Virus record (IMG/VR): IMGVR_UViG_3300032242_001769
Span: 1 to 38,932 of that record
Reading direction: 5' to 3' (one strand)
From: a virus
Length of the DNA: 38,932 bases
Shown: piece after piece, positions 16,363 to 27,341 of the stretch
Layout: each line of letters starts with the position of its first letter
Numbering within the stretch: position 1 is the first letter of the stretch
Notes under the pieces: generated by a model
The model's database searches: none
The model's input: the letters and a program-made list of their open reading frames with translations, nothing else
What the model was told of the DNA's origin: nothing
Position numbers and translations under genes: made by a program

Positions 16363-16370
16363 AAAATTCT

Positions 16371-16883: not shown

Positions 16884-16888
16884 ATTCC

Positions 16889-16962
16889 TGGAGCGGGGTA
16901 AGAGAATCGAACTCTCAGCATTAGCTTGGAAGGCTAAGGTATTACCACTATACGAACCCCGC
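16889..16962 (-). tRNA. tRNA-Gly(TCC)
   Basis: Anticodon loop CTTCCAA, T-loop TTCGATT, encoded CCA. Confidence 0.95.
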
Positions 16963-16964
16963 TT

Positions 16965-17048
16965 ACTATTCTGAAACACACTACCTGCTCTGTTACGGCT
17001 ACATATCTGTAGTTTGGTATCCATTCATGTAATGTGTTTTAGAATAGT
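16965..17048 (-). repeat. Hairpin cassette, ACACACT family
   Basis: 20-base arms that pair with two mismatches (plus strand ACTATTCTGAAACACACTAC and GTAATGTGTTTTAGAATAGT). The inner 44 bases hold a CTACA/TGTAG hairpin but no tRNA. It begins 3 bases from the 5' end of tRNA-Gly(TCC). Confidence 0.65.
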
Positions 17049-17359
17049 GGAGGACTGAGAATACATCTCTCCCAATAGCACCTCGGACATTATTGTAAAC
17101 CTTGCGAGTCTACTTTCTTCCGACTTCCACTACAACCATATTGCTATGTATCATAGTCTGCTATCAGCATCGCCGTTTTTAAAGACAGGCAGTAGTCTTG
17201 TCGCCATATGCTATTCTACGCTTTCTATCCCGTTGACCTTGCGAGCCATTCAAGTGCGCTAACACCTTACGAAACTTCCTGCATAAACCAATATTACCTT
17301 GCGAGCTTTATTGGACTTGGTTAGCTTGCGCCCCAAGTATTAGATGCTTTTCACATACG

Positions 17360-17475
17360 ACCGAGTCAGTCTTTGCTTTTATGTTAGATAGTGGGTATGA
17401 AGCCACAGCCTATTCCTTAACAGGGAATTGCTCTACGATGAGCTATATCAACCTACTGCGATGTGCTGACTCAGT
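17360..17475 (-). repeat. Inverted-repeat frame around Asn-like tRNA
   Basis: 10-bp arms (minus strand ACTGAGTCAG and CTGACTCGGT, one G-U) enclose the tRNA-like element at 17382-17452. Confidence 0.5.
17382..17452 (-). tRNA. Aberrant tRNA-Asn-like element (GTT)
   Basis: Good D-arm (GCTC/GAGC) and anticodon arm ATTCC-CTGTTAA-GGAAT. The 3' acceptor strand carries an extra T (TATCTAAC), the T-loop has 8 bases, and no CCA is encoded. Either a decaying tRNA or a tRNA-like RNA. Confidence 0.55.
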
Positions 17476-17683
17476 TGCTACATAATCTTTTGGACTACAT
17501 AATACAACACACCACGTACCTTTTGTCTTGCGAACTACTCAGTCGTCTTTTGCGATCTGTGTCGACCCCGCCATTGCTGACAGCCTCCACTAACCACTCA
17601 AACTGCATACGAGCCCTTAGGTGCAACCCTTCGGACAAATACGCTACCCTTTCTCATACTAATTAACTGGACTGGTTTAGTTG

Positions 17684-17732
17684 TGAAGTCAGCACCACCT
17701 GTTACTTTCCATCTACCCAAGTTCCCCTTGCG
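17684..17732 (-). ncRNA. Structured non-coding element (copy b)
   Basis: Shares with 15903-15985, in the same order on the minus strand, CGCAAGG, CTTGGG and GTAACAGGTGGT; a CCC-GCAA-GGG tetraloop hairpin is visible. Confidence 0.45.
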
Positions 17733-17942
17733 GGCTTGTCGGCACATGTTCTTTCCACAACATCCAGCGTCATTGTTACAACCACCGGTCTTATCAGTGA
17801 TCGCTACCTCACGGTAGTGAGCAGGCTTGTCTAAACGAACTATTACTAGCGGAGTTATGTAGGCATACCTCCTTTGGCTGTGTCACCACAGTTATTCTTC
17901 GTAAACGGCAAGCCGCCTACAGGATATTAAACTACCCTTAAA

Positions 17943-18054
17943 TTCTTATACAACTGCACACTTACAGGAATTGAACCTGCCCACCTCGGATTTACCAAAG
18001 CTGCAATCCGCTACATCTGCGTGGCCTACGCATTCATGTGCATGTGTATAAGAA
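17943..18054 (-). repeat. 17-bp extended stem around Cys-like tRNA
   Basis: Arms CTTATACAACTGCACAC and GTGCATGTGTATAAG pair over about 17 bp with a two-base mismatch, continuing the acceptor stem of the enclosed tRNA-like element. TTCTTATAC is repeated just outside, giving a second possible hairpin. Confidence 0.6.
17955..18041 (-). tRNA. Aberrant tRNA-Cys-like element
   Basis: T-arm CAGG-TTCAATT-CCTG and the stretch ATGTAGCGGATTGCA match bacterial tRNA-Cys. About 9 extra bases (GCTTTGGTA) follow the anticodon GCA inside the loop, a TGCG/CGCA hairpin sits in the D region, and CCA is absent. A normal tRNA-Cys is at 25201. Confidence 0.5.
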
Positions 18055-18067
18055 CTTCTTATACTTA

Positions 18068-18082
18068 ACTTTTTAAAGAGCG
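18068..18082 (-). promoter_or_regulatory. boxA-like antitermination sequence
   Basis: Minus strand CGCTCTTTAAAAAGTT, close to rrn boxA (TGCTCTTTAACA), about 25 bases after a sigma-70 promoter and before the gene-free block. Confidence 0.6.
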
Positions 18083-18107
18083 TATGTTAATTTCTTAACA
18101 TGTATAT

Positions 18108-18136
18108 ATTGTAGCAAACTTCTTACTGTTTGTCAA
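18108..18136 (-). promoter_or_regulatory. Sigma-70 promoter with rrn-like leader
   Basis: TTGACA, 17-bp spacer, TACAAT. Drives the structured block and probably tRNA-Gly(TCC) onward. Confidence 0.85.
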
Positions 18137-18162
18137 TACCTTTTTAAAATATCTTTATTAAA

Positions 18163-18239
18163 ACACACTTCCAAGAACTCCCGATTGATTAACTCGGTCC
18201 TAATGCTCATTCAGGTAATCACATCCCGAAGGAGTGTGC
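18163..18239. repeat. Hairpin cassette, ACACACT family (weak)
   Basis: Plus-strand ACACACTTCC pairs with GGAGTGTG; a CCGA/TCGG hairpin lies inside. The rest of 18240-18445 shows further hairpins (GTCTAG/CTAGAC, ACTCC/GGAGT) but no gene. Confidence 0.45.
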
Positions 18240-18449
18240 TAGTGTCTAGCTACCTACACCACATAGGCCCTAGACTGAGCTGTTACTCTGTCCATAACAT
18301 TTATTCATTTGGAGTAGGTGTTAAACCTCACCCAATGCGTTCCCGCCACTCCTTCACGGAGTACAGATGGTCAATGCACTGCACACCTGGCGCTCTTTAT
18401 GGTGACTGCCCCACCCCCTGTGTATAACGGGCAAGGGCGCCCGGGTTTT

Positions 18450-18524
18450 TGGTGCCCCCACCATGACTTGAACACGGGACCTTCGCCTTACAAGGGCGCT
18501 GCTCTACCACTGAGCTATAAGGGC
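18450..18524 (-). tRNA. tRNA-Thr(TGT)
   Basis: Anticodon loop CTTGTAA, T-loop TTCAAGT, encoded CCA; two G-U pairs in the acceptor. Confidence 0.93.
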
Positions 18525-18531
18525 ATAAGTG

Positions 18532-18711
18532 TTATCCACCTTGAGTAGAATTTTTTACTTCGTTATCGTTGCGCTCTTGTTCTTCCATCCAAAGCATTTG
18601 TTGATGTTTAAATGTATCTTCAGTTAGACTATGCCAACCAATACAATTACCAGTTGGGCTACGGCCGCAACCGCAAGTACCTTTTTTCATTTGTTCAACA
18701 CTAGGTGACAT
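18532..18711 (-). CDS. CDGSH-like iron-sulfur miniprotein
   Basis: 59 residues (MSPSVEQMKKGTCGCGRSPT...). C13, C15, C23 and H27 form CxC-x2-S-x4-C-x-G-x-H, one residue shorter than the CDGSH motif C-x-C-x2-S-x3-P-x-C-D-G-S-H that holds a [2Fe-2S] cluster. The rest is a charged helix. A cluster-binding or redox role is inferred from the motif only. The start overlaps the upstream stop by one base (TAATG). Confidence 0.72.
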   Translation of the reverse strand: MSPSVEQMKKGTCGCGRSPTGNCIGWHSLTEDTFKHQQMLWMEEQERNDNEVKNSTQGG

Positions 18712-18893
18712 TATTTTTCTTCCTTACCAGACTGCCATTCAACAGTTTTCTTATCTTCTTTGTAAAAGTCATCAGGCAATGGAGGCGGAACATATTGTTC
18801 CTTCTTTGGTTTAGTACCAAAAATGCTTTCAATGTTTTTACCCAATTCCTCTTGGGAAATACTAATAGGGCGTGTCCTACTACCTTTACTCAT
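18711..18893 (-). CDS. Small phage protein, 60 aa
   Basis: MSKGSRTRPISISQEELGKN starts a 60-residue protein with a Pro-rich middle (YVPPPLPDDFYKED) and acidic end. Function unknown. It overlaps the omega-like gene by ATGA, so the three genes 18532-19117 form one operon behind tRNA-Leu(TAG). Confidence 0.75.
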   Translation of the reverse strand: MSKGSRTRPISISQEELGKNIESIFGTKPKKEQYVPPPLPDDFYKEDKKTVEWQSGKEEK

Positions 18894-19117
18894 CGAACTT
18901 TCCTCAAATATTCACGACCGACTTTACCTTGTTCAACTTCTTTCAATGCCAATACAATTGGATTGCTACCATTAGTATTATCGACCAATGGACGAGCACC
19001 TCGGCGCAGTTCGCGAACACGAGCACTTGCCACTAGCACAAGATCGAATCGATTACCAATCATTTCAACACATTTGTCTGTGTCATTTTGAGAAGGTAAC
19101 ATTGCAGTTTTTAACAT
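18890..19117 (-). CDS. rpoZ: RNA polymerase omega subunit-like protein
   Basis: 75 residues. The block MIGNRFDLVLVASARVRELR followed by RGARPLVDN and NPIVLALKEVEQGKVG matches the conserved core of bacterial RpoZ (NRFDLVLVAARRARQ...; T-V-I-A-L-R-E-I-x-E-G). Omega binds the C-terminus of beta-prime and helps its folding; in E. coli it also contributes to a ppGpp site. A phage copy could replace the host subunit and alter polymerase behaviour. Its position inside the tRNA array, transcribed together with tRNA-Leu(TAG), is notable. Confidence 0.8.
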   Translation of the reverse strand: MLKTAMLPSQNDTDKCVEMIGNRFDLVLVASARVRELRRGARPLVDNTNGSNPIVLALKEVEQGKVGREYLRKVR

Positions 19118-19139
19118 AAAGTCTTTCTATAAAATTAAA

Positions 19140-19223
19140 TGGTGCCCTAGGAGAGACTCGAACTCTCAACTCTTTCGAGGACGGCTTCTAAGACCGCTGT
19201 GTAAACCATTCCACCACCAGGGC
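19140..19223 (-). tRNA. tRNA-Leu(TAG)
   Basis: Class II with a 13-base variable arm, anticodon loop CTTAGAA, T-loop TTCGAGT, encoded CCA. Confidence 0.95.
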
Positions 19224-19241
19224 ATTAAACTAACAAATACT

Positions 19242-19270
19242 ATTGTAACAGGATATTTATAAACTGTCAA
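19242..19270 (-). promoter_or_regulatory. Sigma-70 promoter before tRNA-Leu(TAG)
   Basis: TTGACA, 17-bp spacer, TACAAT. The spacer also contains TATAAATA, a late-type sequence. Confidence 0.85.
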
Positions 19271-19287
19271 TAGTATATCTAAATTAA

Positions 19288-19506
19288 TTTGTTAAAGTTG
19301 TGTCACCATCGTTATTGACACCATTCACCTGTTTATACAAGGTCGACCAGGACTCGGTAAGTCACTTGGAATACTTGTCCAGTCTGTGCGCCGCCTTGCA
19401 CCCGGATCTTCCGATCCGTCGGGCATCGAACCCGTAACCTTCTACTATATCAGTCCTTCGAAGAAACTTTTATAGCGTGACTTTCTTTTGCTGACACTTT
19501 AACAAA
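19288..19506 (-). ncRNA. Multi-branched structured RNA with T-arm-like hairpin
   Basis: Closed by GTTAAAG.../...CTTTAAC arms that start next to the CCA of tRNA-Asp. Inside, on the minus strand: AAGTCAC with GTGACTT (7 bp), AGGACT with AGTCCT (6 bp), a T-arm-like CGGG-TTCGATG-CCCG, and CGGATC-GGAA-GATCCG with a GNRA tetraloop. No anticodon arm. Function unknown. Confidence 0.55.
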
Positions 19507-19509
19507 ACT

Positions 19510-19585
19510 TGGCGCCACAGACGGGAATCGAACCCGCCTAAATCGGATAGACAATCCAGTGCCCTCCCCAGAGGACTACTGTGGC
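19510..19585 (-). tRNA. tRNA-Asp(GTC), copy 1
   Basis: Anticodon loop TTGTCTA, T-loop TTCGATT, discriminator G, encoded CCA. Nearly identical in its 3' half to the copy at 25586. Confidence 0.95.
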
Positions 19586-19603
19586 ATAAAATTAATCTGT
19601 AAA

Positions 19604-19686
19604 GAAAGACCTCAATCTTTCACTTGTAGCACGGTGTATGTAAACATACTATCTTTCGATATCAAAGCCTCAACTTTGAACTTGTA
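19604..19686 (-). ncRNA. Tandem covarying hairpins with loop UUGAGG
   Basis: Two 6-bp hairpins, GAAAGA-TTGAGG-TCTTTC and TCAAAG-TTGAGG-CTTTGA (minus strand), 58 bases apart. Each is directly preceded by TACAAGT. The stems differ by compensating changes while loop and flank are identical. Confidence 0.65.
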
Positions 19687-19718
19687 TCGCGGTTGCTGTG
19701 AACAGCATTTACAAAACT

Positions 19719-19793
19719 TGGCGACTCGTGGGAGAATCGAACTCCCGTAATCGGATAGACAATCCGAAGTAATGACCATTATACGAACGAGCC
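19719..19793 (-). tRNA. tRNA-Asp(GTC), copy 2
   Basis: Anticodon loop TTGTCTA, T-loop TTCGATT, discriminator G, encoded CCA; the D-arm differs from copy 1. Confidence 0.92.
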
Positions 19794-19877
19794 TAAATTT
19801 GCAGTAGTTTCTATATCACCCATTGAAACTAATAAACATTGAGAAAGAGCTTGCATTGCAAGATTCCTATTTGCTCT

Positions 19878-19964
19878 TGGTGGAGACGACTGGAGTCGAA
19901 CCAGTAGTGCCTTTCGGGCGGCGGATTTACAGTCCACTGGGGTTACCAATTTTCCTACATCTCC
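19878..19964 (-). tRNA. tRNA-Tyr(GTA)
   Basis: Class II, anticodon loop CTGTAAA, T-loop TTCGACT, encoded CCA. Confidence 0.93.
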
Positions 19965-19971
19965 ATATCTG

Positions 19972-20063
19972 TGGTACCAGCGGAGGGGATCGAACCCTCT
20001 CAAGAACGCTAATCTGGCGCTAAAAGGCTTATAAGACCTCTCTGACTTCCAAGTCTCGCTGGC
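19972..20063 (-). tRNA. tRNA-Ile(TAT) with class II-like variable arm
   Basis: Anticodon loop CTTATAA (decodes AUA), stem as in the initiator-like tRNA at 15725 except C34 to T. A 20-base variable region forms a 5-bp hairpin (AGCGC/GCGTT), unusual for Ile. T-loop TTCGATC, encoded CCA. Confidence 0.8.
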
Positions 20064-20073
20064 ATTGATTATT

Positions 20074-20139
20074 TACACTCGGGACTTTTCTCGACGGTGG
20101 TGTCCTTGCCTCGCATAAACTATGTTTAGGCCGAGTGTA
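20074..20139 (-). repeat. Inverted repeat in tRNA spacer
   Basis: Perfect 9-bp arms TACACTCGG / CCGAGTGTA around 48 bases. Confidence 0.6.
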
Positions 20140-20143
20140 TAAA

Positions 20144-20310
20144 ACCATTAGTTGATAGCACTTAAACCTTACAGGCTAAGCAAATTTCGGAGTGGGTTGC
20201 AGCCCTCCTAAGCCATTGCTCTCGGTTGTGTCAGAAGAGTAAGATGGCCCTATTCTTCATAAGTTTATGCGTCCATAAACGATACCCGTCAAATACTATC
20301 AACTAATGGT
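20144..20310 (-). ncRNA. 167-nt element with 15-bp perfect closing stem
   Basis: Arms ACCATTAGTTGATAG / CTATCAACTAATGGT. The first arm on the minus strand begins with the ACCA of tRNA-Leu(TAA). Inside are GTTTATG-GACG-CATAAAC and a GGAGGG/CCC-CTCC hairpin. No ORF. Could block CCA-end maturation or be a processed RNA. Confidence 0.6.
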
Positions 20311-20393
20311 GCGGCTGGCCGGAATCGAACCGGCACGGTGTCTCCACCGGCGGGTTTTAAGCCCGCTACGTCTACCTATTTCATCACAGCCGC
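20307..20393 (-). tRNA. tRNA-Leu(TAA)
   Basis: Class II, anticodon loop CTTAAAA, perfect GCGGG/CCCGC stem, T-loop TTCGATT, encoded CCA. Confidence 0.95.
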
Positions 20394-20406
20394 AAATTTT
20401 ATTTTA

Positions 20407-20420
20407 ATTTTTTAAAGAAC
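20407..20420 (-). promoter_or_regulatory. boxA-like antitermination sequence
   Basis: Minus strand GTTCTTTAAAAAATT, 14 bases before tRNA-Leu(TAA) and about 40 after the promoter. Confidence 0.6.
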
Positions 20421-20458
20421 TTGTAACAGCTAACTCTATCATTTGCTGCTATGTAATA

Positions 20459-20487
20459 ATTATAGCGTCTTATTGCACTGTTGTCAA
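20459..20487 (-). promoter_or_regulatory. Sigma-70 promoter, perfect consensus, rrn-like leader
   Basis: TTGACA, 17-bp spacer, TATAAT; heads the tRNA-Leu(TAA)/Ile/Tyr/Asp group. Confidence 0.88.
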
Positions 20488-20530
20488 CAAGTTTTTAATA
20501 TTTCTTTTGGTGCTCTAATGCAGAATCGAA

Positions 20531-21124
20531 CTACGATAATTTTAATCCTCTAGATGCCCGACCGTTGCCTTTATTCCTGCCCTTCCAAGTTGGAGTTATT
20601 GCATGACAATTTGGACATAATAATCTAACATTTGACGGCAAATTATTAGCTGCGTTTCCATCTATGTGATCAACTTCTAATGTAATTTTTAATCCTTGCC
20701 ATTCATTGATTCCACATTGACTACACCCGTTATATTTTTTATAGAGAATACCGTGTATAGTGCCTCTTGTTGATATTTCACCGTTATCAAACTTTTCTTG
20801 AGTAATATTTTTAGTGAATAAACCCATGCAAGTTTGATTACAGAACTTTTTCTTTTTATAAGGCAGTGTTAAATGTTCAGAGTTGCAAGTTAAACAATTC
20901 CATTTGACGTGTTCTGTCCTTAATAAATTGTTGTATGTTGCTGAGCAAGTATGATTACAAAAAATATTTTTCCTATTTAAATAGCCTATAATTAAATTAC
21001 AATGTTTACACTTTTTTGGATTTTCATTATACGCTAAAATTCTAGCATTCTTTTTTTGTTCTGTAACTAGTTTACTTTGTTCACCACCTAATTTTCCAGA
21101 TTCTGCTTTGGAATGTTTTTGCAC
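20531..21124 (-). CDS. HNH endonuclease, free-standing homing-type
   Basis: 197 residues from a GTG start with AGGGG 6 nt upstream. Two Cys-rich zinc-ribbon modules (CKHCN...CNHTC and CLTCNS...CNQTC) precede an HNH domain: CSQCG, LEVDHIDGNAANN with the catalytic His, and VRLLCPNCHA. Such genes cut intronless alleles and spread into phage genomes, commonly between tRNA or other genes. The GTG lies in one arm of an inverted repeat with a late-type promoter between the arms. Confidence 0.9.
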   Translation of the reverse strand: MQKHSKAESGKLGGEQSKLVTEQKKNARILAYNENPKKCKHCNLIIGYLNRKNIFCNHTCSATYNNLLRTEHVKWNCLTCNSEHLTLPYKKKKFCNQTCMGLFTKNITQEKFDNGEISTRGTIHGILYKKYNGCSQCGINEWQGLKITLEVDHIDGNAANNLPSNVRLLCPNCHAITPTWKGRNKGNGRASRGLKLS

Positions 21125-21160
21125 TTAAAACCCCTTTTATTTTATTTATGTTATAAGTGC
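21121..21160 (-). promoter_or_regulatory. Start-codon hairpin enclosing a late-type promoter
   Basis: Arms GCACTTA / TAAGTGC (7 bp). The second contains the GTG start of the HNH gene, and CATAAATA (21143-21150) lies between the arms. Only transcripts from upstream would carry both arms. Confidence 0.65.
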
Positions 21161-21176
21161 GAAAAGTTATATTTAT

Positions 21177-21253
21177 TGGTGCCGATGAGAGGAGTTGAAC
21201 CTCTGACCTCATTCATACCAAGAATGTGCAACTACCATCTGTGCTACATCGGC
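21177..21253 (-). tRNA. tRNA-Thr(GGT)
   Basis: Anticodon loop TTGGTAT, T-loop TTCAACT, encoded CCA. Confidence 0.92.
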
Positions 21254-21273
21254 ATTAAACTATAAGAGCGAAT

Positions 21274-21349
21274 TGGCTCCTCGACCTGGGCTCGAACCAG
21301 GGACCTACGGATTAACAGTCCGGCGCTCTACCGACTGAGCTATCGAGGA
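21274..21349 (-). tRNA. tRNA-Asn(GTT), copy 1
   Basis: Clean cloverleaf, anticodon loop CTGTTAA, T-loop TTCGAGC, discriminator G, encoded CCA. Confidence 0.95.
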
Positions 21350-21356
21350 ATATACT

Positions 21357-21581
21357 TTATTCTGCTGTACTAGCTGTGCCAGTATCGTTTGTTACATAAC
21401 TCGCACCTTGTGGACGAGGGCCATTGCGATCAGACTTAGTAGACTTTGGAACAATCGCTGCCGCCAATTCTGCTTGGATCATCATTCGTTTCCAACCATC
21501 GCGCTGTTCTTTATTTTTGATGCTACCCAAAAGGTTTTTAGTAGCGTTACTCATCTTATATGTCTTTGTTGGTTTTAACAT
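21357..21581 (-). CDS. Small basic phage protein, 74 aa
   Basis: MLKPTKTYKMSNATKNLLGS begins a 74-residue Lys/Arg-rich protein with a helical centre (GWKRMMIQAELAAAIVP) and a low-complexity Thr/Ser/Ala tail. AGAGAAG precedes the ATG. It resembles short phage proteins of unknown role. It sits between two tRNAs with 7- and 19-base gaps. Confidence 0.72.
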   Translation of the reverse strand: MLKPTKTYKMSNATKNLLGSIKNKEQRDGWKRMMIQAELAAAIVPKSTKSDRNGPRPQGASYVTNDTGTASTAE

Positions 21582-21600
21582 TTCTTCTCTTTTTAAAATT

Positions 21601-21691
21601 TGGTGGAAGGCTAGGGAATCGAACCCTATGACCAGCTCATCACTGATCTACACCTTAGCAGGGTGCTGCATTACCGGCCTGCCCGCCTTCC
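21601..21691 (-). tRNA. tRNA-Ser(GCT)
   Basis: Class II, anticodon loop CTGCTAA, T-loop TTCGATT, encoded CCA. Confidence 0.94.
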
Positions 21692-21699
21692 TATAAACT

Positions 21700-21728
21700 A
21701 TTATACTGTACTTATTGCACGGTGTCAA
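21700..21728 (-). promoter_or_regulatory. Sigma-70 promoter, perfect consensus
   Basis: TTGACA, 17-bp spacer, TATAAT, ending 8 bases before tRNA-Ser(GCT). Confidence 0.88.
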
Positions 21729-21743
21729 CAAGTATTTAAAAAC

Positions 21744-21858
21744 TGGTACGGCTGGTAGGTCTTGAACCTACAAGAACACCATGACTATGTCCTGTGCCCC
21801 GTCCCCATTCTATGCTATGAGCATAGCGGGAGGTCTTCCATATTCCACTCACAGCCGC
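21744..21858 (-). tRNA. Oversized tRNA with anticodon CAT (Met or Ile2)
   Basis: 115 nt. Acceptor GCGGCTG/CAGCCGT and T-arm GTAGG-TTCAAGA-CCTAC with CCA are normal. The anticodon arm is CTATG-CTCATAG-CATAG, but the region before it is lengthened (CCCG, able to pair with CGGG downstream) and the variable region is about 38 bases. The anticodon assignment is by eye. Confidence 0.65.
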
Positions 21859-21864
21859 AAGTAT

Positions 21865-21893
21865 ATTATATACTTATCGACGGTATGTGTCAA
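21865..21893 (-). promoter_or_regulatory. Sigma-70 promoter, perfect consensus
   Basis: TTGACA, 17-bp spacer, TATAAT, immediately before the oversized CAT tRNA. Confidence 0.88.
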
Positions 21894-21902
21894 CAGTTAT
21901 TT

Positions 21903-21977
21903 TGGTCTCGCCTGCAGGAATCGAACCCACATTCACAGGGTAGAAGCCTATTGTATTGTCCATTATACGAAGGCGAG
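21903..21977 (-). tRNA. tRNA-Arg(TCT), copy 1
   Basis: Anticodon loop CTTCTAC, acceptor CTCGCCT/AGGCGAG, T-loop TTCGATT, encoded CCA. Confidence 0.92.
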
Positions 21978-21983
21978 ATTATG

Positions 21984-22057
21984 TGGTAGTTCCTGAAAGA
22001 ATCGAACTTTCATCTTCGCCAAGTCAAAGCAGTGTTCTACCATTAAACTAAGGAACT
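21984..22057 (-). tRNA. tRNA-Val(GAC)
   Basis: Anticodon loop TTGACTT, T-loop TTCGATT, encoded CCA; weak anticodon stem with two G-U pairs and a C-A mismatch. Confidence 0.88.
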
Positions 22058-22058
22058 G

Positions 22059-22133
22059 TGGTCTCGCCACCAAGGATCGAACTTGGATCAAAAGTTTAGG
22101 AAACTTCTATTCTATCCATTGAACTACAGCGAG
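22059..22133 (-). tRNA. tRNA-Arg(CCT)
   Basis: Anticodon loop TTCCTAA, T-loop TTCGATC, encoded CCA. Its 5' end touches the plus-strand late promoter of the next mini-gene. Confidence 0.92.
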
Positions 22134-22140
22134 ATAAATA
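22133..22140 (+). promoter_or_regulatory. T4-type late promoter element
   Basis: GATAAATA followed by TTTTT and the GTG start: a leaderless arrangement on the strand opposite to the tRNAs. Confidence 0.7.
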
Positions 22141-22145
22141 TTTTT

Positions 22146-22310
22146 GTGAGAATATACGAAAACCTTACACCAAGTGGACTACACTTTCGCTTATCATATG
22201 ATAGTGGCGTATGTTGTATTATGGTTCAGGATTTGTATGATAACACATACTTTGAAATGCAATATTTCACCGATGTTAATAGAGCGTTGCGCTTTATCAA
22301 TAACTTATAA
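22146..22310 (+). CDS. Leaderless plus-strand mini-gene, 54 aa
   Basis: 54 residues from a GTG start (reads M/VRIYENLTPSGLHFRLSYDS), ending FTDVNRALRFINNL; a strand-rich fold with a C-terminal helix. The frame fills the space between two minus-strand tRNAs. The late promoter element ends 5 bases before the GTG, so there is no room for a Shine-Dalgarno site. Function unknown. Confidence 0.7.
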   Translation: MRIYENLTPSGLHFRLSYDSGVCCIMVQDLYDNTYFEMQYFTDVNRALRFINNL

Positions 22311-22312
22311 AT

Positions 22313-22387
22313 TGGCGGGTCCTGAGAGGATCGAACTCCCACCCTCTGGTTCGAAGCCAGAGATGATATCCATTTCACCAAAGACCC
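22313..22387 (-). tRNA. tRNA-Arg(TCG)
   Basis: Anticodon arm TCTGG-CTTCGAA-CCAGA, T-loop TTCGATC, discriminator G, encoded CCA. It shares one base with the stop codon of the upstream gene. Confidence 0.93.
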
Positions 22388-22833
22388 TAAACTGTTGAAG
22401 CAATATATTCGTAATTTACAGTTTCAACATTTTCACGGAATACAATAGCACCGTTCTTTAGATGAAATCGTCTTGCCATTGCTGTCGGTGGACTCAATGT
22501 AACAAACCTTTTGATATTGGGCTTGTTTTCCTTAATGTGTGATACTGCATTAAAAATTAATGTACGACCTGCACCTGGAACATAACTCCATATTGTATAA
22601 AATATAGCAACATCAGGTTCACTACTTTCAGAAAACAATTCTTGTTCTGTTGTAGGGATACGATCTTGATAACTTACACAGGTAATTGCTTTAACATTAC
22701 CTTCTTCATCACGATATACAAAGATATCTTTATTAAGGCCAATCCTACTTATGTTAGGAATAGATGGACGAACAGGATCTTCTTTTAAGAAGTTGAAAAA
22801 ATTATCAGTGTCAGATTTGATTAGGTGTAGCAT
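22387..22833 (-). CDS. GNAT-fold acetyltransferase-like phage protein
   Basis: 148 residues. The pattern RDEEGNVKAITCVSYQD, FYTIWSYVPGAGRTLIFNAV and ARRFHLKNGAIVFRENVETVNY follows the strand-helix order of acyl-CoA N-acyltransferases, with PGAGR at the place of the acetyl-CoA loop. Recognisable as a family common in T4-like cyanophages; substrate unknown. ACAGG precedes the ATG by 5 nt. Confidence 0.72.
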   Translation of the reverse strand: MLHLIKSDTDNFFNFLKEDPVRPSIPNISRIGLNKDIFVYRDEEGNVKAITCVSYQDRIPTTEQELFSESSEPDVAIFYTIWSYVPGAGRTLIFNAVSHIKENKPNIKRFVTLSPPTAMARRFHLKNGAIVFRENVETVNYEYIASTV

Positions 22834-22893
22834 AAATGCCTGTGGTAGTTATAACTGTACTTATCTAATTAGTACATAAATGTTTAAAAAACT

Positions 22894-22969
22894 TGGTAGA
22901 AGCGGTCGGACTCGAACCGACGATAGACACCGTATGAAGGTGGCGCATTAGCCGCTATGCTACGCTTCC
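22894..22969 (-). tRNA. tRNA-Met(CAT), elongator type
   Basis: Anticodon loop TTCATAC, perfect acceptor GGAAGCG/CGCTTCT (one G-U), T-loop TTCGAGT, encoded CCA. An Ile2 (lysidine) identity cannot be excluded. Confidence 0.9.
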
Positions 22970-22995
22970 ATATAACTACACCTTGAAATCAAATA

Positions 22996-23571
22996 TCAAG
23001 CAGTCTTTACAGACATCCAAGAAGTGCCTGGAGCAGACACATTAGTCAGTAATTCGTGAACTGCTTTTGCTACTGGTGGATAGCCAAAATCGTGGCCACT
23101 AATAACTCCACCAATTTTTACCTTAGGTAGCCAAGCAATAATATCTGCCTTAACATTATCATAATCGTGTGATGCATCGATAAACACAAGATCCAAGCTA
23201 TTGTCATCATATGTAGCGGCAGCTGGCACACTGGCCATTCTAACCGCTCTATAATGACCTTCAGCAGGTTTCATGTTTGCAGTAAACACTTCAAATAGTC
23301 TTTTATTAACTACATCAGCATCTTCAAAGCCTTGGCCTTCTTGATGTTCTTCACTGCCTAACCAAGTATCCACACAATCAAATTGTATGCCTTTATTACT
23401 GTTTGCACATTCTACAGCCATGTATGCACTACTACGACCTTTGTATGATCCTACCTCCACAAAGTGGGCAGGGCCTTGTACTCGGTCTACCATGGATTTA
23501 TAAAATAGTATGTCGCCGTGTTCAAAAAAACCGGGAACATTTTGCCAGAAATGATTTAAAGTTGTTGTCAT
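22996..23571 (-). CDS. Class I SAM-dependent methyltransferase, Methyltransf_24 type
   Basis: 191 residues from the ATG at 23571. The SAM-binding motif is HFVEVGSYKGRSSAYM (37-52), followed by CVDTWLG and the conserved LVFIDASHDYD (about 127-137) and GGVISGHDF. This family methylates small molecules or sugars and commonly occurs in glycan clusters. CATAAATA ends 5 bases before the ATG, so a leaderless late message is likely. Confidence 0.85.
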   Translation of the reverse strand: MTTTLNHFWQNVPGFFEHGDILFYKSMVDRVQGPAHFVEVGSYKGRSSAYMAVECANSNKGIQFDCVDTWLGSEEHQEGQGFEDADVVNKRLFEVFTANMKPAEGHYRAVRMASVPAAATYDDNSLDLVFIDASHDYDNVKADIIAWLPKVKIGGVISGHDFGYPPVAKAVHELLTNVSAPGTSWMSVKTA

Positions 23572-23576
23572 AAAAA

Positions 23577-23584
23577 TATTTATG
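23577..23584 (-). promoter_or_regulatory. T4-type late promoter element
   Basis: CATAAATA, then TTTTT, then ATG. CATAAA and TTTATG are also complementary, a weak 6-bp hairpin over the start. Confidence 0.68.
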
Positions 23585-23599
23585 CGTACATAATGTACA

Positions 23600-23681
23600 C
23601 CATATAGAAACACATTTATTTCGTTATCCCACCTCTAGAAAGATATATGGGGCGCCTTAGCACTAATGTGTTTATATATGG
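23600..23681 (-). repeat. Hairpin cassette, ACACACT family
   Basis: 17-base arms CCATATAGAAACACATT and AATGTGTTTATATATGG (one mismatch). The first arm on the minus strand begins with the CCA of the tRNA-like element at 23679. Confidence 0.65.
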
Positions 23682-23761
23682 AATCCATTGTGTGTAGGGC
23701 ATCGAAACCTACATTCGGCCCCATAACGGGCCTTTCTTACCACTTAGAAGAACACGGACTC
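23679..23761 (-). tRNA. Aberrant tRNA-like element
   Basis: Acceptor GAGTCC/GGATTC and a D-arm TTCT/AGAA are visible. The anticodon stem GGCCC/GGGCC has a 6-base loop (GTTATG), the T-loop is enlarged (GTAGG...CCTAC with 9 bases), and three bases are extra in the acceptor. No anticodon can be assigned. Confidence 0.4.
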
Positions 23762-23809
23762 TTGGGGTCATGACTCCCCAATATGGACAGGGTAATTACT
23801 CCTGTTTTT

Positions 23810-23910
23810 ACCATATGTAAACACACTACCAGTCCCCGGGATTCGAACCCGCTTCTCTTATAGTTTACCACGACTTTTACGGTCGGGCAAGTAATGTGTT
23901 TGCATATGGT
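23810..23910 (-). repeat. Hairpin cassette with T-arm, ACACACT family
   Basis: 20-base arms ACCATATGTAAACACACTAC and GTAATGTGTTTGCATATGGT (two mismatches). Inside, on the minus strand, CGAC-CGTAAAA-GTCG and CGGG-TTCGAAT-CCCG hairpins follow each other. The outer arm starts at the ACCA of tRNA-Lys(TTT). Confidence 0.68.
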
Positions 23911-23982
23911 GGATCCACTCGGATTCGAACCGAGAATTTACAGGGTAAAAGCCTGATGTTATAGCCGTTTAACTATGAATCC
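23907..23982 (-). tRNA. tRNA-Lys(TTT)
   Basis: Anticodon loop CTTTTAC, acceptor GGATTCA/TGGATCC, T-loop TTCGAAT, encoded CCA. Confidence 0.94.
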
Positions 23983-24115
23983 CATATATGGTCCCTCCAC
24001 TCAGAGTCAAACTGAGCCTTCTCGGATTAAGAGTCCGGTATGCTATCGAAACATCTTGAAGGGGTTGTGCATATTAAAATTGTCTTTAATGTGCCAACCC
24101 TAGACCATATACGGG
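23980..24115 (-). repeat. Inverted-repeat frame around tRNA-Lys(CTT)
   Basis: 14-base arms TCCCATATATGGTC and GACCATATACGGGA (one mismatch). The 3' arm includes the GACCA end of tRNA-Lys(CTT) and the first bases of tRNA-Lys(TTT). Confidence 0.6.
23989..24063 (-). tRNA. tRNA-Lys(CTT)
   Basis: Anticodon loop CTCTTAA, T-loop TTTGACT (T replaces the usual C56), encoded CCA. A 15-bp imperfect hairpin (GGGTTG...CAACCC) lies directly upstream and would compete with the acceptor. Confidence 0.88.
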
Positions 24116-24182
24116 ATCTAAAGTTGACACTATAGTTTACGAGATTTTCGTTTCATATAGTACCTTCTTTGTTTATGTGCTA

Positions 24183-24211
24183 ATTATAACACCGTTGTTA
24201 GTTGTTGTCAA
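24183..24211 (-). promoter_or_regulatory. Sigma-70 promoter, perfect consensus
   Basis: TTGACA, 17-bp spacer, TATAAT, inside the end of the 132-codon gene; drives the two tRNA-Lys genes. Confidence 0.88.
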
Positions 24212-24596
24212 CTGTTTCGTATCCTAAGTCTACTCTTTCGCTGTAGTATCCGTTGGATTCACCTAGCCACCTTACATCCACATAACCCTTACGAGTTGCA
24301 AACTTGTAAAATGTCCAAGTACCTGATTCACTAAACTCTTTGTCTGCGGTGTTAAGCAAATCAAATACATTGCTGGTTTCTTCTGCCATTAGAAGTGGTA
24401 CTCCTACTAGGTCAGACAAGTCGCCTACAACATCTTCAATGCGAACATGTTCGCAACAATCTTGTGAGTGAAAAAACACATAGCGTTCTACATCGTTTTC
24501 AAAGATTAATTCTGAACCTGTTTCAGTTACAGAAGTAAAAACTTTGCCAACCATATCTGCTATGTTGACTCTATTTCTATAATCATAATATGACAT
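24198..24596 (-). CDS. Hypothetical phage protein (DUF7448-like)
   Basis: 132 residues. GKVFTSVTETGSELIFENDV, then FFHSQDCCEHVRIEDVVGD and a beta-rich C-terminus (WTFYKFATRKGYVDVRWLGESNG) fit a family found in many phages that I associate with DUF7448; function unknown. AAGGA lies 8 nt before the ATG, 20 bases after the CCA of tRNA-Phe. Confidence 0.78.
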   Translation of the reverse strand: MSYYDYRNRVNIADMVGKVFTSVTETGSELIFENDVERYVFFHSQDCCEHVRIEDVVGDLSDLVGVPLLMAEETSNVFDLLNTADKEFSESGTWTFYKFATRKGYVDVRWLGESNGYYSERVDLGYETVDNN

Positions 24597-24615
24597 TACA
24601 TATCCTTTCTATAAA

Positions 24616-24691
24616 TGGTGCAACCTGTAGGAATCGAACCTACTTCAATACCGCTTCAAGATACCGCTATGACCACATCAGCTAAAGTTGC
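24616..24691 (-). tRNA. tRNA-Phe(GAA)
   Basis: Anticodon loop TTGAAGC, acceptor GCAACTT/AGGTTGC, T-loop TTCGATT, encoded CCA. Confidence 0.92.
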
Positions 24692-24698
24692 ATTAAAT

Positions 24699-24790
24699 TG
24701 GCGGAAAGCAGAGGAGTCGAACCCCATCCCATTTCTGAGAACCCAGTTTTCAAGGCTGGTCGCAGGACCAACCCCGCTGCATTACTTTCC
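24699..24790 (-). tRNA. tRNA-Ser(TGA)
   Basis: Class II, D-stem GCAG/CTGC, anticodon loop CTTGAAA with a C-A pair at the loop base, T-loop TTCGACT, discriminator G, encoded CCA. Confidence 0.9.
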
Positions 24791-24797
24791 ATAAAAT

Positions 24798-24873
24798 TGG
24801 TGCCCCAGTCCGGAATCGAACCGACTTCTCCTGCTTACAAAACAGGACCTCATCCATTAAAGGTTTCAAGGGC
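24798..24873 (-). tRNA. tRNA-Thr(TGT), copy 2
   Basis: Anticodon loop TTTGTAA, D-stem ACCT/AGGT, T-loop TTCGATT, encoded CCA; one T-T mismatch in the acceptor. Confidence 0.88.
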
Positions 24874-24881
24874 GATATACT

Positions 24882-24958
24882 TGGTACCCCGTGTCTGATT
24901 CGAACAGACAGCCAACTCCTTTTGAGAGAATCCGCACTACCAATTAGCGTAACGGGGC
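24882..24958 (-). tRNA. tRNA with Leu anticodon CAA but short variable loop
   Basis: Anticodon loop CTCAAAA, acceptor GCCCCGT/ACGGGGT, T-loop TTCGAAT, encoded CCA. Leu tRNAs are normally class II; here the variable region is only about 4-5 bases, so the amino acid is uncertain. Confidence 0.78.
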
Positions 24959-24962
24959 ATAT

Positions 24963-25117
24963 AGGTTTTTGAGAGACCAACTATCTTTCTCAAGGACTCA
25001 TTGGCTTGTCTCGAATAAGAGAGTTTATACAACCTTGTACAGTTCTACTGGTGTGTCACGCATCAGCACAATGCGCTAGAATACAAGGGACTCAATCCTA
25101 TCGTCTATCTCAAAACT
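24963..25117 (-). ncRNA. Structured spacer element after tRNA-Pro
   Basis: Closed by GTTTTGAGA / TCTCAAAAAC next to the CCA of tRNA-Pro(TGG). Inside, CCTTGTA-TTCTA pairs with TAGAA-CTG-TACAAGG, enclosing a CGCAT/ATGCG hairpin. No ORF. Confidence 0.55.
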
Positions 25118-25193
25118 TGGTCTCCCATGAAGGACTCGAACCTTCGATTTCCTCGTTCCAAACAAGGAGGCATAGCCGCTAGCCCAATGAGAG
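25118..25193 (-). tRNA. tRNA-Pro(TGG), copy 2
   Basis: Anticodon loop TTTGGAA, acceptor CTCTCAT/ATGGGAG, T-loop TTCGAGT, encoded CCA. Confidence 0.93.
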
Positions 25194-25200
25194 ATAAAAC

Positions 25201-25278
25201 TGGAGTAGGGAGCCGGATTCGAACCGGCGGTTTTGCGGATTTGCAATCCACTGCATTGGGCCACTCTGCCACCCCTAC
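25201..25278 (-). tRNA. tRNA-Cys(GCA)
   Basis: Anticodon arm GTGGA-TTGCAAA-TCCGC, T-loop TTCGAAT, discriminator T, encoded CCA. Confidence 0.94.
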
Positions 25279-25288
25279 ATATAGCTAA

Positions 25289-25358
25289 CATAGCCGGAGG
25301 AGTCGAACCTCTCTAGTCGGCAATGACTAACTGTCTATGCCCGTAACCCTACTGCTAT
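25289..25358 (-). tRNA. Aberrant tRNA-like element
   Basis: Acceptor ATAGCAG/CGGCTAT, T-arm GAGG-TTCGACT-CCTC. The anticodon region is an interrupted stem (GGCA..GAC-AGTTA-GTC..TGCC) with a 5-base loop, and no CCA is encoded. The D-loop and 3' half resemble tRNA-Ala at 25363 (GGGTTACGG, GACTAGA). Confidence 0.45.
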
Positions 25359-25362
25359 AAAT

Positions 25363-25437
25363 TGGTGGAAGCCGAGGGAATCGAACCCTTCTAGTCACGA
25401 TCCTTGCAAAAGAACGCCGTAACCCATTACTGCCCCC
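25363..25437 (-). tRNA. tRNA-Ala(TGC), copy 2
   Basis: Anticodon loop TTTGCAA on a stem with one T-T mismatch, T-loop TTCGATT, encoded CCA; irregular D-arm. Confidence 0.8.
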
Positions 25438-25505
25438 ATTATAGAAACACACTTCATGGATGAACCCACGTGTCTCCTTACGGATAGAGTATGTTTCTAT
25501 AATGG
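25436..25505 (-). repeat. Hairpin cassette, ACACACT family
   Basis: 19-base arms CCATTATAGAAACACACTT and GAGTATGTTTCTATAATGG (two mismatches) join the CCA of tRNA-Asn to the first two bases of tRNA-Ala. The loop contains GGGTTCATCC, a T-arm-like sequence. Confidence 0.68.
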
Positions 25506-25578
25506 CTCCATCTGTTGGATTCGAACCAACCTCTTCCGGTTAACAGCCAGGGGTACTCACCGAGAATACTAAGATGGA
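25503..25578 (-). tRNA. tRNA-Asn(GTT), copy 2
   Basis: Anticodon loop CTGTTAA, T-loop TTCGAAT, discriminator G, encoded CCA. Confidence 0.92.
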
Positions 25579-25585
25579 ATAAAAT

Positions 25586-25661
25586 TGGCGCCATGGACGG
25601 GAATCGAACCCGCCTTGGTCGGATAGACAATCCGTTGCCCTACCCAGAGGACTACCATGGC
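25586..25661 (-). tRNA. tRNA-Asp(GTC), copy 3
   Basis: Anticodon loop TTGTCTA, T-loop TTCGATT, discriminator G, encoded CCA; very similar to copy 1. Confidence 0.95.
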
Positions 25662-25667
25662 ATAAAT

Positions 25668-25743
25668 TGGGGTGTTAGATGGGGAACGATCCCATACTAT
25701 CGCTTTCACAGAGCAATGTGCAGACCACTACACTACTAACACC
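25668..25743 (-). tRNA. tRNA-His(GTG)
   Basis: Anticodon loop CTGTGAA. An extra 5' G faces C73, the His identity pair. The T-loop is ATCGTTC rather than TTCRANY. Encoded CCA. Confidence 0.9.
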
Positions 25744-25749
25744 ATAAAC

Positions 25750-25823
25750 TGGCAGGCGCATTAGGGATCGAACCTAAACTAACAGAGTCAAAGTCTGTTG
25801 TGCTACCATTACACAATGCGCCA
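25750..25823 (-). tRNA. tRNA-Gln(TTG)
   Basis: Anticodon loop CTTTGAC, open 1-72 position (T x T) and discriminator G, as favoured by GlnRS. T-loop TTCGATC, encoded CCA. Confidence 0.92.
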
Positions 25824-25830
25824 ACAATTT

Positions 25831-25904
25831 TGGTTCCTCCAACAAGAATCGAACTTGTAATGACCGGTTATCAGCCGATTGTTATACCATTTAACTATAG
25901 AGGA
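25831..25904 (-). tRNA. tRNA-Ile(GAT)
   Basis: Anticodon loop CTGATAA, acceptor TCCTCTA/TGGAGGA, T-loop TTCGATT, encoded CCA. Confidence 0.94.
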
Positions 25905-25909
25905 ATATT

Positions 25910-25984
25910 TGGTGCGCCCGGATGGAATCGAACCACCATTACTAAGTTCGTAGCCTAGAGTATTATCCATTATACTACGAGCGC
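25910..25984 (-). tRNA. tRNA-Arg(ACG)
   Basis: Anticodon loop CTACGAA; A34 would need TadA editing to inosine. T-loop TTCGATT, encoded CCA. Confidence 0.92.
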
Positions 25985-25990
25985 AAATTT

Positions 25991-26065
25991 TGGAAGAGCT
26001 ACGGGGAATCGAACCCCGCTTACCAGGATGAAAACCTAGTGTCCTAACCGATAGACGATAGCTCC
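25991..26065 (-). tRNA. tRNA-Glu(TTC), copy 1
   Basis: Anticodon loop TTTTCAT, T-loop TTCGATT, encoded CCA, G-U at 1-72. Confidence 0.93.
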
Positions 26066-26072
26066 ATAAACT

Positions 26073-26147
26073 TGGCGGTCCCAGGGGGTAACGATCCCCC
26101 TCCTCAGCAGTGACAGTGCTGTGTGCGTCCATGAACACCTTGAGACC
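26073..26147 (-). tRNA. tRNA-Asp(GTC), copy 4, odd T-loop
   Basis: Anticodon arm CAGCA-CTGTCAC-TGCTG and discriminator G with encoded CCA. The T-loop is ATCGTTA on a GGGGG/CCCCC stem, the same unusual type as in tRNA-His. Confidence 0.85.
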
Positions 26148-26156
26148 TAAAACTTT

Positions 26157-26164
26157 TATAAATA
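26157..26164 (+). promoter_or_regulatory. T4-type late promoter element
   Basis: Perfect TATAAATA followed by TCTTT and the ATG of the plus-strand mini-gene. Confidence 0.75.
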
Positions 26165-26169
26165 TCTTT

Positions 26170-26358
26170 ATGCAAATACAAGATTACACTGATCTAGTAG
26201 AACGCCTGTTAACACTAAAGGGCCGTTCATTCAAAGATTCGCATGAGCAAATGTTATGGCAGCGTGGCTACCTAACAGGACTTTTAGCTAACCTAGCACT
26301 AGAAGATTCTAGTATTGCCAGTAAGCTATCTCATATGGTCAATAAAAACAAAAAATAA
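26170..26358 (+). CDS. Leaderless plus-strand mini-gene, 62 aa
   Basis: MQIQDYTDLVERLLTLKGRS begins a 62-residue, mostly helical protein with EQMLWQRGYLTGLLANLAL, a pattern I associate with small conserved T4-like phage proteins. An earlier in-frame ATG would start inside tRNA-Asp. The perfect late promoter element ends 5 bases before the ATG. Function unknown. Confidence 0.78.
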   Translation: MQIQDYTDLVERLLTLKGRSFKDSHEQMLWQRGYLTGLLANLALEDSSIASKLSHMVNKNKK

Positions 26359-26360
26359 AT

Positions 26361-26436
26361 TGGTATCGCGTACGGGAATCGAACCCGCCTAGTCACCTTG
26401 AAAGGGTGATGACCTAGCCCAGAAGTCAAACGCGAT
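26361..26436 (-). tRNA. tRNA-Glu(TTC), copy 2
   Basis: Anticodon arm TCACC-CTTTCAA-GGTGA, T-loop TTCGATT, encoded CCA. Confidence 0.92.
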
Positions 26437-26600: not shown

Positions 26601-26778
26601 AGAATACTAGCACATAGACTTAACTATGAATTGTGGGTTTCAAGACCACTAATATGCTTTAATACGAACTAATTTTTAGTCCCACAAGAGGGATTCCATC
26701 CTAGTCGCCGCCCGTTTGCTCCAATGTTTTAAGTGCGGAGCTAGGACCTCGTTTCCTATATGTTCACACTTTGCGATA

Positions 26779-26937
26779 TTAACGGTGCCCTAAGGGTTCC
26801 TCTCGCTTTTTATCTACAGCTCGATGATATAACTTAACACGATCTAACTTATTTTGGATCAGTTGTTTAAACTGCTCCTGAGTTAAAACATGCTTCGCAT
26901 ACCAGTCAGCTTGTTGTAAAATCTTTTTATCTGCCAT
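26779..26937 (-). CDS. Small charged phage protein, 52 aa
   Basis: MADKKILQQADWYAKHVLTQ starts a 52-residue, helical, Lys/Arg-rich protein ending REEPLGHR. AAGGA lies 5 nt before the ATG. It is the first gene behind the attenuator-like leader at 26946-27341 and precedes tRNA-Tyr. Function unknown. Confidence 0.72.
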   Translation of the reverse strand: MADKKILQQADWYAKHVLTQEQFKQLIQNKLDRVKLYHRAVDKKREEPLGHR

Positions 26938-26945
26938 TCTTTCCT

Positions 26946-26985
26946 TGTTAAAAACAAAAAACCCCAGGGTTTTTAATCCTGGGGT
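26946..26985 (-). terminator. Intrinsic terminator of the attenuator
   Basis: Minus strand ACCCCAGG - 9 bases - CCTGGGGT followed by TTTTTTGTTTT. Its 5' arm is also complementary to a segment 45 bases upstream (27029-27038). Confidence 0.85.
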
Positions 26986-27010
26986 CCTTGGAAGTTAAAA
27001 TGTAAACTTG

Positions 27011-27157
27011 TTACACTTTGGTCTCCTGGGACCCCAGGCTAATCTCTGGTGTGCGATCATAACTTGACATTTCGAACGCAGACCACAATACGGCGGGGCA
27101 ATTGCCCAGCTGTTTTGCTGTCCCATTAAAATGTTGTTGTAACGATTGCGATTTCAT
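27011..27157 (-). CDS. Leader peptide candidate, 48 aa
   Basis: MKSQSLQQHFNGTAKQLGNC begins a 48-residue frame, and all 20 amino acids occur at least once. The start at 27157 lies about 50 bases downstream of a perfect promoter; GGAA precedes it by 8 nt. Its last codons (LGSQE) contain the antiterminator segment and the stop lies 26 bases before the terminator stem. It may be a regulatory leader peptide; an ordinary small protein is also possible. Confidence 0.6.
   Translation of the reverse strand: MKSQSLQQHFNGTAKQLGNCPAVLWSAFEMSSYDRTPEISLGSQETKV
27025..27038 (-). promoter_or_regulatory. Antiterminator segment
   Basis: Minus strand CCTGGGGTCCCAGG. Its first 10 bases are complementary to GGACCCCAGG at 26978-26987, so it competes with the terminator stem (8 bp). 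Confidence 0.65.
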
Positions 27158-27215
27158 TTTGTTTCCAGTTTCTTTCTTAAATTCTTTACATTCGCTATCT
27201 CTAGCGCATGTCTTT

Positions 27216-27244
27216 ATTATACAGTTATTTATGTCTGTTGTCAA
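27216..27244 (-). promoter_or_regulatory. Sigma-70 promoter, perfect consensus (proximal)
   Basis: TTGACA, 17-bp spacer, TATAAT; starts the leader RNA upstream of the 48-codon frame. Confidence 0.88.
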
Positions 27245-27312
27245 GCACTTTTTTAAGTTTCTGACAAATTATTTAGTCTTTTTACAAACACTAAATTCTT
27301 TAACATGTCTTA

Positions 27313-27341
27313 ATTATATAGCCCTTTTGCACCTTTGTCAA
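27313..27341 (-). promoter_or_regulatory. Sigma-70 promoter, perfect consensus (distal)
   Basis: TTGACA, 17-bp spacer, TATAAT, 97 bases upstream of the proximal one in the same direction. Confidence 0.88.

Follow-up and report, generated by a model that had tools for sequence, protein, structure and literature searches.

Translation components are controlled by tRNA charging in the pheM-pheST attenuator, which senses one amino acid through translation, and in T-box leaders, which bind uncharged tRNA directly and do not need a leader ORF; to our knowledge, tRNA genes are not among the targets of either, and neither responds to all 20 amino acids. We also know of no earlier attenuator of any kind that senses all 20 amino acids or controls tRNA genes. 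Ribosome-mediated transcription attenuators were described for the amino-acid operons trp, his, leu, thr, ilvGMEDA and pheA (PMC1183508). The locus reported here has the parts of the trp class, namely a promoter, a short leader ORF, a mutually exclusive antiterminator and terminator, a U-rich tract and biased regulatory codons, and it is predicted to respond in the same way, with a stall on a scarce aminoacyl-tRNA giving read-through. In the trp class the regulatory codons of a leader specify one amino acid or a few, and the genes controlled are biosynthetic, whereas here nearly every amino acid is encoded about once and the genes downstream are phage tRNAs; the sensing region is also long (approximately 35 codons), segment A lies inside the ORF, upstream of its stop codon, and no convincing 1:2 protector or pause hairpin was found. 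By analogy, the mode of action would be that of the trp class; what would be new is that nearly all amino acids serve as input, that phage tRNA genes are the output and that composition is under selection.

A role of phage tRNAs as substitutes for tRNAs that host defences cut has been shown or proposed (PMC11555353, PMC10264068), with T5 tRNA-Tyr countering retron-Eco7 (PMC11555353) and an anticodon-nuclease hypothesis put forward for phage tRNAs (PMC10264068). In their passages on phage tRNA-rich regions, these two sources share with the present reading the replacement of destroyed tRNAs and strong promoters; the same passages treat strong and not conditional expression, and mention neither attenuation nor a leader peptide. 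In the open-access literature searched, neither attenuation of phage tRNA genes nor a leader with all amino acids was found described, in line with the first-pass annotation, which knew of no phage tRNA operon under such control. Among cultured phages (50,697 records), there was no convincing match to the leader, the attenuator, the downstream element or the downstream ORF. A search with the upstream protein as query gave no matches. No such leader was present near the array heads of PA5oct, Phosso, XbC2, Vibrio phage 2.275.O, ACP17, V45v66 and pEa_SNUABM_19 (one stretch per genome).

The window, that is, the whole stretch of DNA analysed here (IMG/VR virus record IMGVR_UViG_3300032242_001769, 38,932 nt), contains on its minus strand, in this order, promoters, a leader ORF, a terminator, a 52-codon ORF, a non-coding element and a tRNA array (Table 1). 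It is highly probable that the region before the array is a ribosome-mediated transcription attenuator, under the control of which the phage tRNAs are expressed when nearly any aminoacyl-tRNA runs short. The elements that define known attenuators were found, namely a promoter with a short leader ORF (in all 114 relatives), an antiterminator and a terminator with a shared segment, and leader codons linked to the operon. The anatomy of the locus and its position before the tRNA genes, as well as its conservation, covariation, apparent purifying selection and amino-acid completeness, were established by computation. The first-pass annotation had reported two perfect promoters, a 48-codon frame with all 20 amino acids and three segments followed by a T run, all of which were found exact in letters and coordinates; its two competing helices are both real, and the 10 bp that it gave for the antiterminator, against 8 bp for the terminator, are only the outer part of a longer structure. 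No Rfam family, T-box included, reached its cut-off within positions 26400-27500.

Table 1. Positions of the attenuator, the flanking elements and the tRNA array in the window
Feature	Position	Strand	Basis
Promoter P1, TTGACA-17-TATAAT	27313..27341 (TTGACA at 27341, TATAAT ending 27313)	-	12/12 consensus sigma-70
Promoter P2, TTGACA-17-TATAAT	27216..27244 (TTGACA at 27244, TATAAT ending 27216)	-	12/12 consensus sigma-70
Hairpin CGCTA-GAGA-TAGCG, near the inferred 5' end of the P2 transcript	27193..27206	-	sequence
Leader ORF, 48 codons, all 20 amino acids	27011..27157	-	frame, relatives, synonymous/nonsynonymous counts
Segment A (segment 1), CCTGGGGTCC, located close to where the leader ORF ends and forming the 5' strand of antiterminator helix H1	27029..27038	-	pairs with 26978-26987
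H2, 5' strand, GGAG	27023..27026	-	pairs with CUUC 26990-26993
H3, hairpin spanning the stop codon, AAAGUGUAA (27019-27011)-loop-UUACAUUUU (27005-26997)	26997..27019	-	folding, family pairing
H2, 3' strand, CUUC	26990..26993	-	folding
Segment C (segment 2), GGACCCCAGG, common to antiterminator and terminator	26978..26987	-	sequence, covariation, folding
Segment D (segment 3), CCTGGGGT, and T-rich tract of the intrinsic terminator	26950..26968 (CCTGGGGT, 26968-26961)	-	sequence, folding
Intrinsic terminator as a whole (C to T tract)	26950-26987	-	sequence, folding
First downstream ORF, 52 aa, directly after the terminator	26779..26937	-	similar short ORFs at the equal position in several relatives
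Second conserved non-coding element, between attenuator and array	~26645..26775	-	kept in relatives
Array of 36 tRNA genes, all 20 amino acids, inferred controlled genes	15352..26436	-	tRNA gene prediction

Upstream of the leader, two or more promoters of at least 10/12 were present within 300 nt in 89/108 relatives (background, 1.4%), with a median spacing of 98 nt between promoters of the P1-P2 type. A hairpin of at least 5 bp near the predicted 5' end of the P2 transcript was counted in 77/108 relatives, a bare count given without background. The palindrome TGTTGTAAAAATACAACA is located just 5' of P1 (27351-27368, minus strand), and GTTGTA..TACAAC was found in the upstream regions of 34/108 relatives (background, 1.7%); it is perhaps an operator for a phage or host regulator.

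Relatives were collected in several ways. A search with the leader peptide gave seven loci and a search with its alignment gave 35, with tRNA arrays downstream where the sequence was long enough. To avoid selection by the peptide, IMG/VR was also searched with the C-D terminator alone, and the matches listed are a lower bound. Relatives that keep the terminator and lack segment A or the leader frame had been named by the first-pass annotation as evidence against attenuation; GGGTCC was located upstream in all 112 viral C-D terminators listed with 95 nt upstream (background, 1.4% per 95 nt), and a translated-looking ORF covered it in nearly all of the viral terminators examined. The sole terminator without segment A among the matches listed was from a bacterial genome (L191), and was discarded as a chance match. 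After pooling and removal of identical leader regions only, at least 114 leaders remained, 42-51 codons in length and all accompanied by an analogous attenuator; IMG/VR contigs may include near-identical viruses, and stricter reductions were also counted. Each leader in this set was cut at the ATG giving the length nearest to 47 codons, a rule blind to composition. Because GGGTCC and GGACCC were required for the 114-leader set, its 6-bp A:C core reflects that choice, and the outer A:C pair, H2, H3 and the second sample described below are free of that requirement.

Leaders followed by more than 600 nt of sequence, or by a tRNA within a shorter stretch, had a same-strand tRNA gene downstream in 101/101 cases; the 13 leaders without a downstream tRNA are all followed by less than 600 nt. 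With 3 kb downstream, at least five tRNA genes were present in 64/64 cases (median, 21).

All 20 amino acids were encoded in 101/114 leaders (88.6%) of approximately 47 codons each among the IMG/VR matches listed, and one or two amino acids were missing from the remaining 13. The share expected from the pooled composition is 3.3%, and the shares obtained were 3.2% for other ORFs of the same contigs (4303 windows of 47 residues), 0% when the leaders were read in either of the other two frames and 2% after base shuffling. When residues were shuffled within alignment columns, which keeps the family likeness, 20% (sd, 3.3; maximum, 30%) were complete against the 88.6% observed, and in a greedy set below 40% identity 10 of the 15 leaders were still complete. 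Cys occurs exactly once in 100/114 leaders and is spread over 23 alignment columns, and therefore composition is conserved rather than sequence. Between relatives at 50-90% identity, the single Cys was at a differing aligned position in 71% of comparisons, His in 40% and Tyr in 30%, and Trp almost never shifted. The 40 codons 5' of segment A alone included all 20 amino acids in 75% of the leaders. Comparison of 26 independent close pairs gave 70 synonymous and 89 nonsynonymous substitutions against a site ratio of 0.262, and the leader frame therefore looks translated and, judged from these substitutions, under purifying selection. The family would show an unusual kind of selection, on the completeness of the composition of the peptide and not on its sequence.

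Compared with other ORFs, the leaders preferred GAG (fraction, 0.89 versus 0.20 elsewhere), NNU in most two-codon boxes and GCC/GCG/CCC/ACG, and avoided GCT, CCT and ACT, a comparison that ignores kinship among the leaders. This preference for wobble-read codons may be likened to the sensitive codons of known attenuators (PMC1183508). A relation between an amino acid missing from a leader and a tRNA missing from its array (L129, L143, L112) was rejected, with L120 and L190 not fitting and the arrays being cut short.

A second sample was selected by the non-coding element downstream of the attenuator only, with neither the leader nor the attenuator used in the search. This element (positions 26645-26775) has the order GGAAACGAGGTCC ... 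AAACGGGCGG ... AAAAATT ... TATTAAAG, is present in more than 119 viral stretches and gave no match to an Rfam family at E<=1. A part of about 30 nt shows similarity, possibly by chance (E 0.1), to an unannotated stretch in the early region of T7-like phages and would perhaps be an RNase III site. The search gave 61 array heads with 650 nt upstream; tRNA genes were found in 68/72 heads with 1 kb downstream, and five or more in 54/54 heads with 3 kb downstream. The GGGTCC-type attenuator was present in 15/61 heads, and an open search detected an attenuator-like arrangement in 56/61, in which segment A had 38 and segment C 36 sequence variants (e.g. the pairs AGGGTTTAAGTTAA/TTAACTTAAACCCT and GGGGTTCTG/CAGAGCCCC), with an A:C score of 10.4 versus 2.9 for shuffled sequences. 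The leaders, taken as the longest ATG frame up to 70 codons, again a rule blind to composition (n = 55; mean, 44 codons), were complete in 28 cases versus 1.85 expected, some of them in 38 codons (L226). After removal of near-duplicates, 19/43 were complete versus 1.47 expected, and 35 had at least 19 amino acids versus 7.1 expected.

The switch was examined by folding in silico. When the RNA was cut before D, A:C formed in 114/114 leaders, either naked or with a ribosome stalled at codon 25, and in the full-length RNA without a ribosome A:C won in 90%. With a masked ribosome at the stop codon, the terminator was obtained in 96% of the 114-leader set, as the first-pass annotation would predict from a ribosome reaching the stop. 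When the masked ribosome was moved along the leader of the window, antitermination was predicted for codons 2-37 and termination from codon 38. The sensing part of the window thus holds the first codons of 19 of the 20 amino acids, all but Ile; most leaders of the family cover 18-20 amino acids, and Glu is the one most often left out (83/114 leaders), as its first codon lies near segment A. For the non-canonical relatives, the terminator was obtained in 92% when the ribosome was placed at the stop codon; without a ribosome the equilibrium fold of the full RNA favours the terminator in approximately 60% and avoids it in approximately 40%, and therefore the switch in these relatives would have to rest on the order of transcription.

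In the proposed mechanism, RNA polymerase would start at P1 or P2 and the leader would be translated by a ribosome behind it, which presupposes coupling of transcription and translation in the host of the phage. A ribosome at the leader stop would leave C free to pair with D, and transcription would end before the tRNA genes. A stall anywhere in codons 2 to approximately 37 would allow the extended antiterminator from A to C to fold before D is made, and polymerase would read through into the array. With each amino acid encoded about once, the leader would act as an alarm for severe loss of almost any tRNA. The switching, its sign and its trigger are inferred. The geometry of translation-controlled attenuation seen in the first-pass annotation is consistent with the covariation, the conservation and the in silico masking, and its idea of a general tRNA-shortage sensor is strongly supported by a composition conserved instead of sequence; the claim for all 20 amino acids holds for nearly all of them, since codons within approximately 4 of segment 1 cannot signal.

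The same switch might instead respond to a loss of translation overall, by few ribosomes, blocked initiation or host shut-off. Such a signal would act through the ribosome-free leader, which also gives the antiterminator in the folds above, and unlike in trp no strong protector hairpin was seen to restore termination; a candidate A:B protector, drawable in 89% of the leaders versus 63% of shuffled sequences and so only modestly above shuffling, did not win in folding and was absent from the minimum-energy fold before D is made. This signal alone leaves unexplained why leaders of diverged sequence still encode all 20 amino acids (89%), as well as their codon bias, and we regard it as unlikely, although loss of overall translation may be an additional input to the switch.

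The antiterminator is a three-part hairpin of H1 (A:C), H2 (GGAG:CUUC) and H3, with the stop codon within the 5' strand of H3. The whole A-to-C hairpin was calculated at -35.5 kcal/mol (z, -6.45; no shuffle equally stable) and the terminator alone at -19.7, and across the family the middle of the extended antiterminator had a mean z of -3.7 against its own shuffles, with 96% below -2. All three reading frames are used to encode GGGTCC (63, 49 and 2 leaders). The outer pair of A:C was G-C in 54, A-U in 52, G-U in 5 and unpaired or other in 3 leaders, with approximately 20 changes on a tree built from other sequence, on which 9 concordant and 0 discordant independent supported pairs were counted (p about 0.004). 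Segments A-D may have been exchanged as one cassette, which would inflate these counts. RNAalifold on a MAFFT alignment of the A-C region misaligned some rows, and only its outer-pair counts match the anchored counts. The search of related phages for conserved segments proposed in the first-pass annotation thus showed covariation of segments 1 and 2 and, in the second sample, 38 differing yet complementary segment-1 sequences.

The end of the leader also resembles an initiation site: an SD-like tetramer (GGAG) precedes the last codon in 109/114 leaders, and ATG, GTG or TTG stands directly before the stop in 70. An initiation-like ribosome on GGAG and (A/G)TG-TAA might therefore mask segment A regardless of upstream events. 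The antiterminator pairing itself accounts for GGAG and GTGTAA: at least 3 of the 4 nucleotides of the tetramer are paired downstream of the stop in 94%, and the first nucleotide of the last codon covaries with its partner (G-C 65, A-U 20, G-U 12 across the family). With these bases engaged in the antiterminator, masking of this kind was set aside as the main reading and is very improbable.

If the leader peptide itself acted, as an arrest peptide of the tnaC or erm type or as a small protein in trans, the conservation of YDRTPEI and one Trp in many leaders and the purifying selection on the frame would follow. Such a role is extremely doubtful: there is no conserved peptide sequence, and hence no arrest-peptide signature, across the leaders, which diverge beyond recognition while the architecture is kept; L132, L138, L122, L161 and L226 have almost no sequence in common with the peptide of the window, and the rare residues shift position so that composition alone is kept. 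An ordinary, unregulated terminator limiting tRNA transcription from upstream promoters deserves next to no credence, since this good intrinsic terminator is accompanied by a complementary upstream segment in all 112 viral cases listed, nearly always inside an ORF, its extended antiterminator is far stabler than shuffles, and the completeness of the leaders would be left unexplained.

For the preferred reading, ribosome-mediated attenuation sensitive to nearly any aminoacyl-tRNA, a plausible trigger would be tRNA depletion by host anticodon nucleases or the decay of host tRNAs during infection. According to Elf and Ehrenberg (PMC1183508), attenuators pick codons whose reading is most sensitive to shortage, and a leader in which regulatory codons are few among many responds weakly when the shortage is mild; a leader with one codon for each amino acid would therefore suit an alarm for severe depletion. 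A sensor of the loss of almost any tRNA before a full tRNA set would fit the role in replacement of tRNAs destroyed by defences, and host tRNA decay or simple starvation would fit equally. The broader proposal, that such attenuators are widespread and fast-evolving in phages, have a peptide selected mainly for containing every amino acid, sense tRNA destruction and release replacement tRNAs as an inducible counter-defence, appears to us evenly poised. If the switch works as predicted, it would provide a control logic for phage tRNA arrays, the purpose of which is still debated, with production of the phage tRNAs coming on when the supply of tRNAs is exhausted. No earlier alarm covering the whole tRNA set is known, and this one is predicted from sequence in large uncultured phages. 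The hypothesis that phage tRNAs counter host tRNA destruction would then become directly testable, and the leader would be a compact genetic sensor for the loss of almost any tRNA.

The contigs carrying such leaders are up to 345-365 kb. Of 20 carriers searched for a large terminase gene, eight gave one, and one of these was closest to jumbo myoviruses, e.g. Pseudomonas phage PA5oct (52% identity). In the window, a gene for a T4 Rnl1-like RNA ligase is located at 9321-10229 (minus strand); ligases of this type repair tRNAs cut by anticodon nucleases. The ligases most closely related to it belong to Acidovorax phage ACP17 and Variovorax phage V45v66, a hint that the host may be a betaproteobacterium. 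Inside the tRNA array there is a third sigma-70 promoter with a 12/12 match (24183-24211, minus strand), the -10 box of which is preceded by TG. Just upstream of the array, a tRNA-like sequence (26446-26532, minus strand), not called by ARAGORN and matching the tRNA-Sec model weakly (23.9 bits, below the cut-off), has a long variable arm and an anticodon loop, CTGTAAC, that would read GUA (Tyr).
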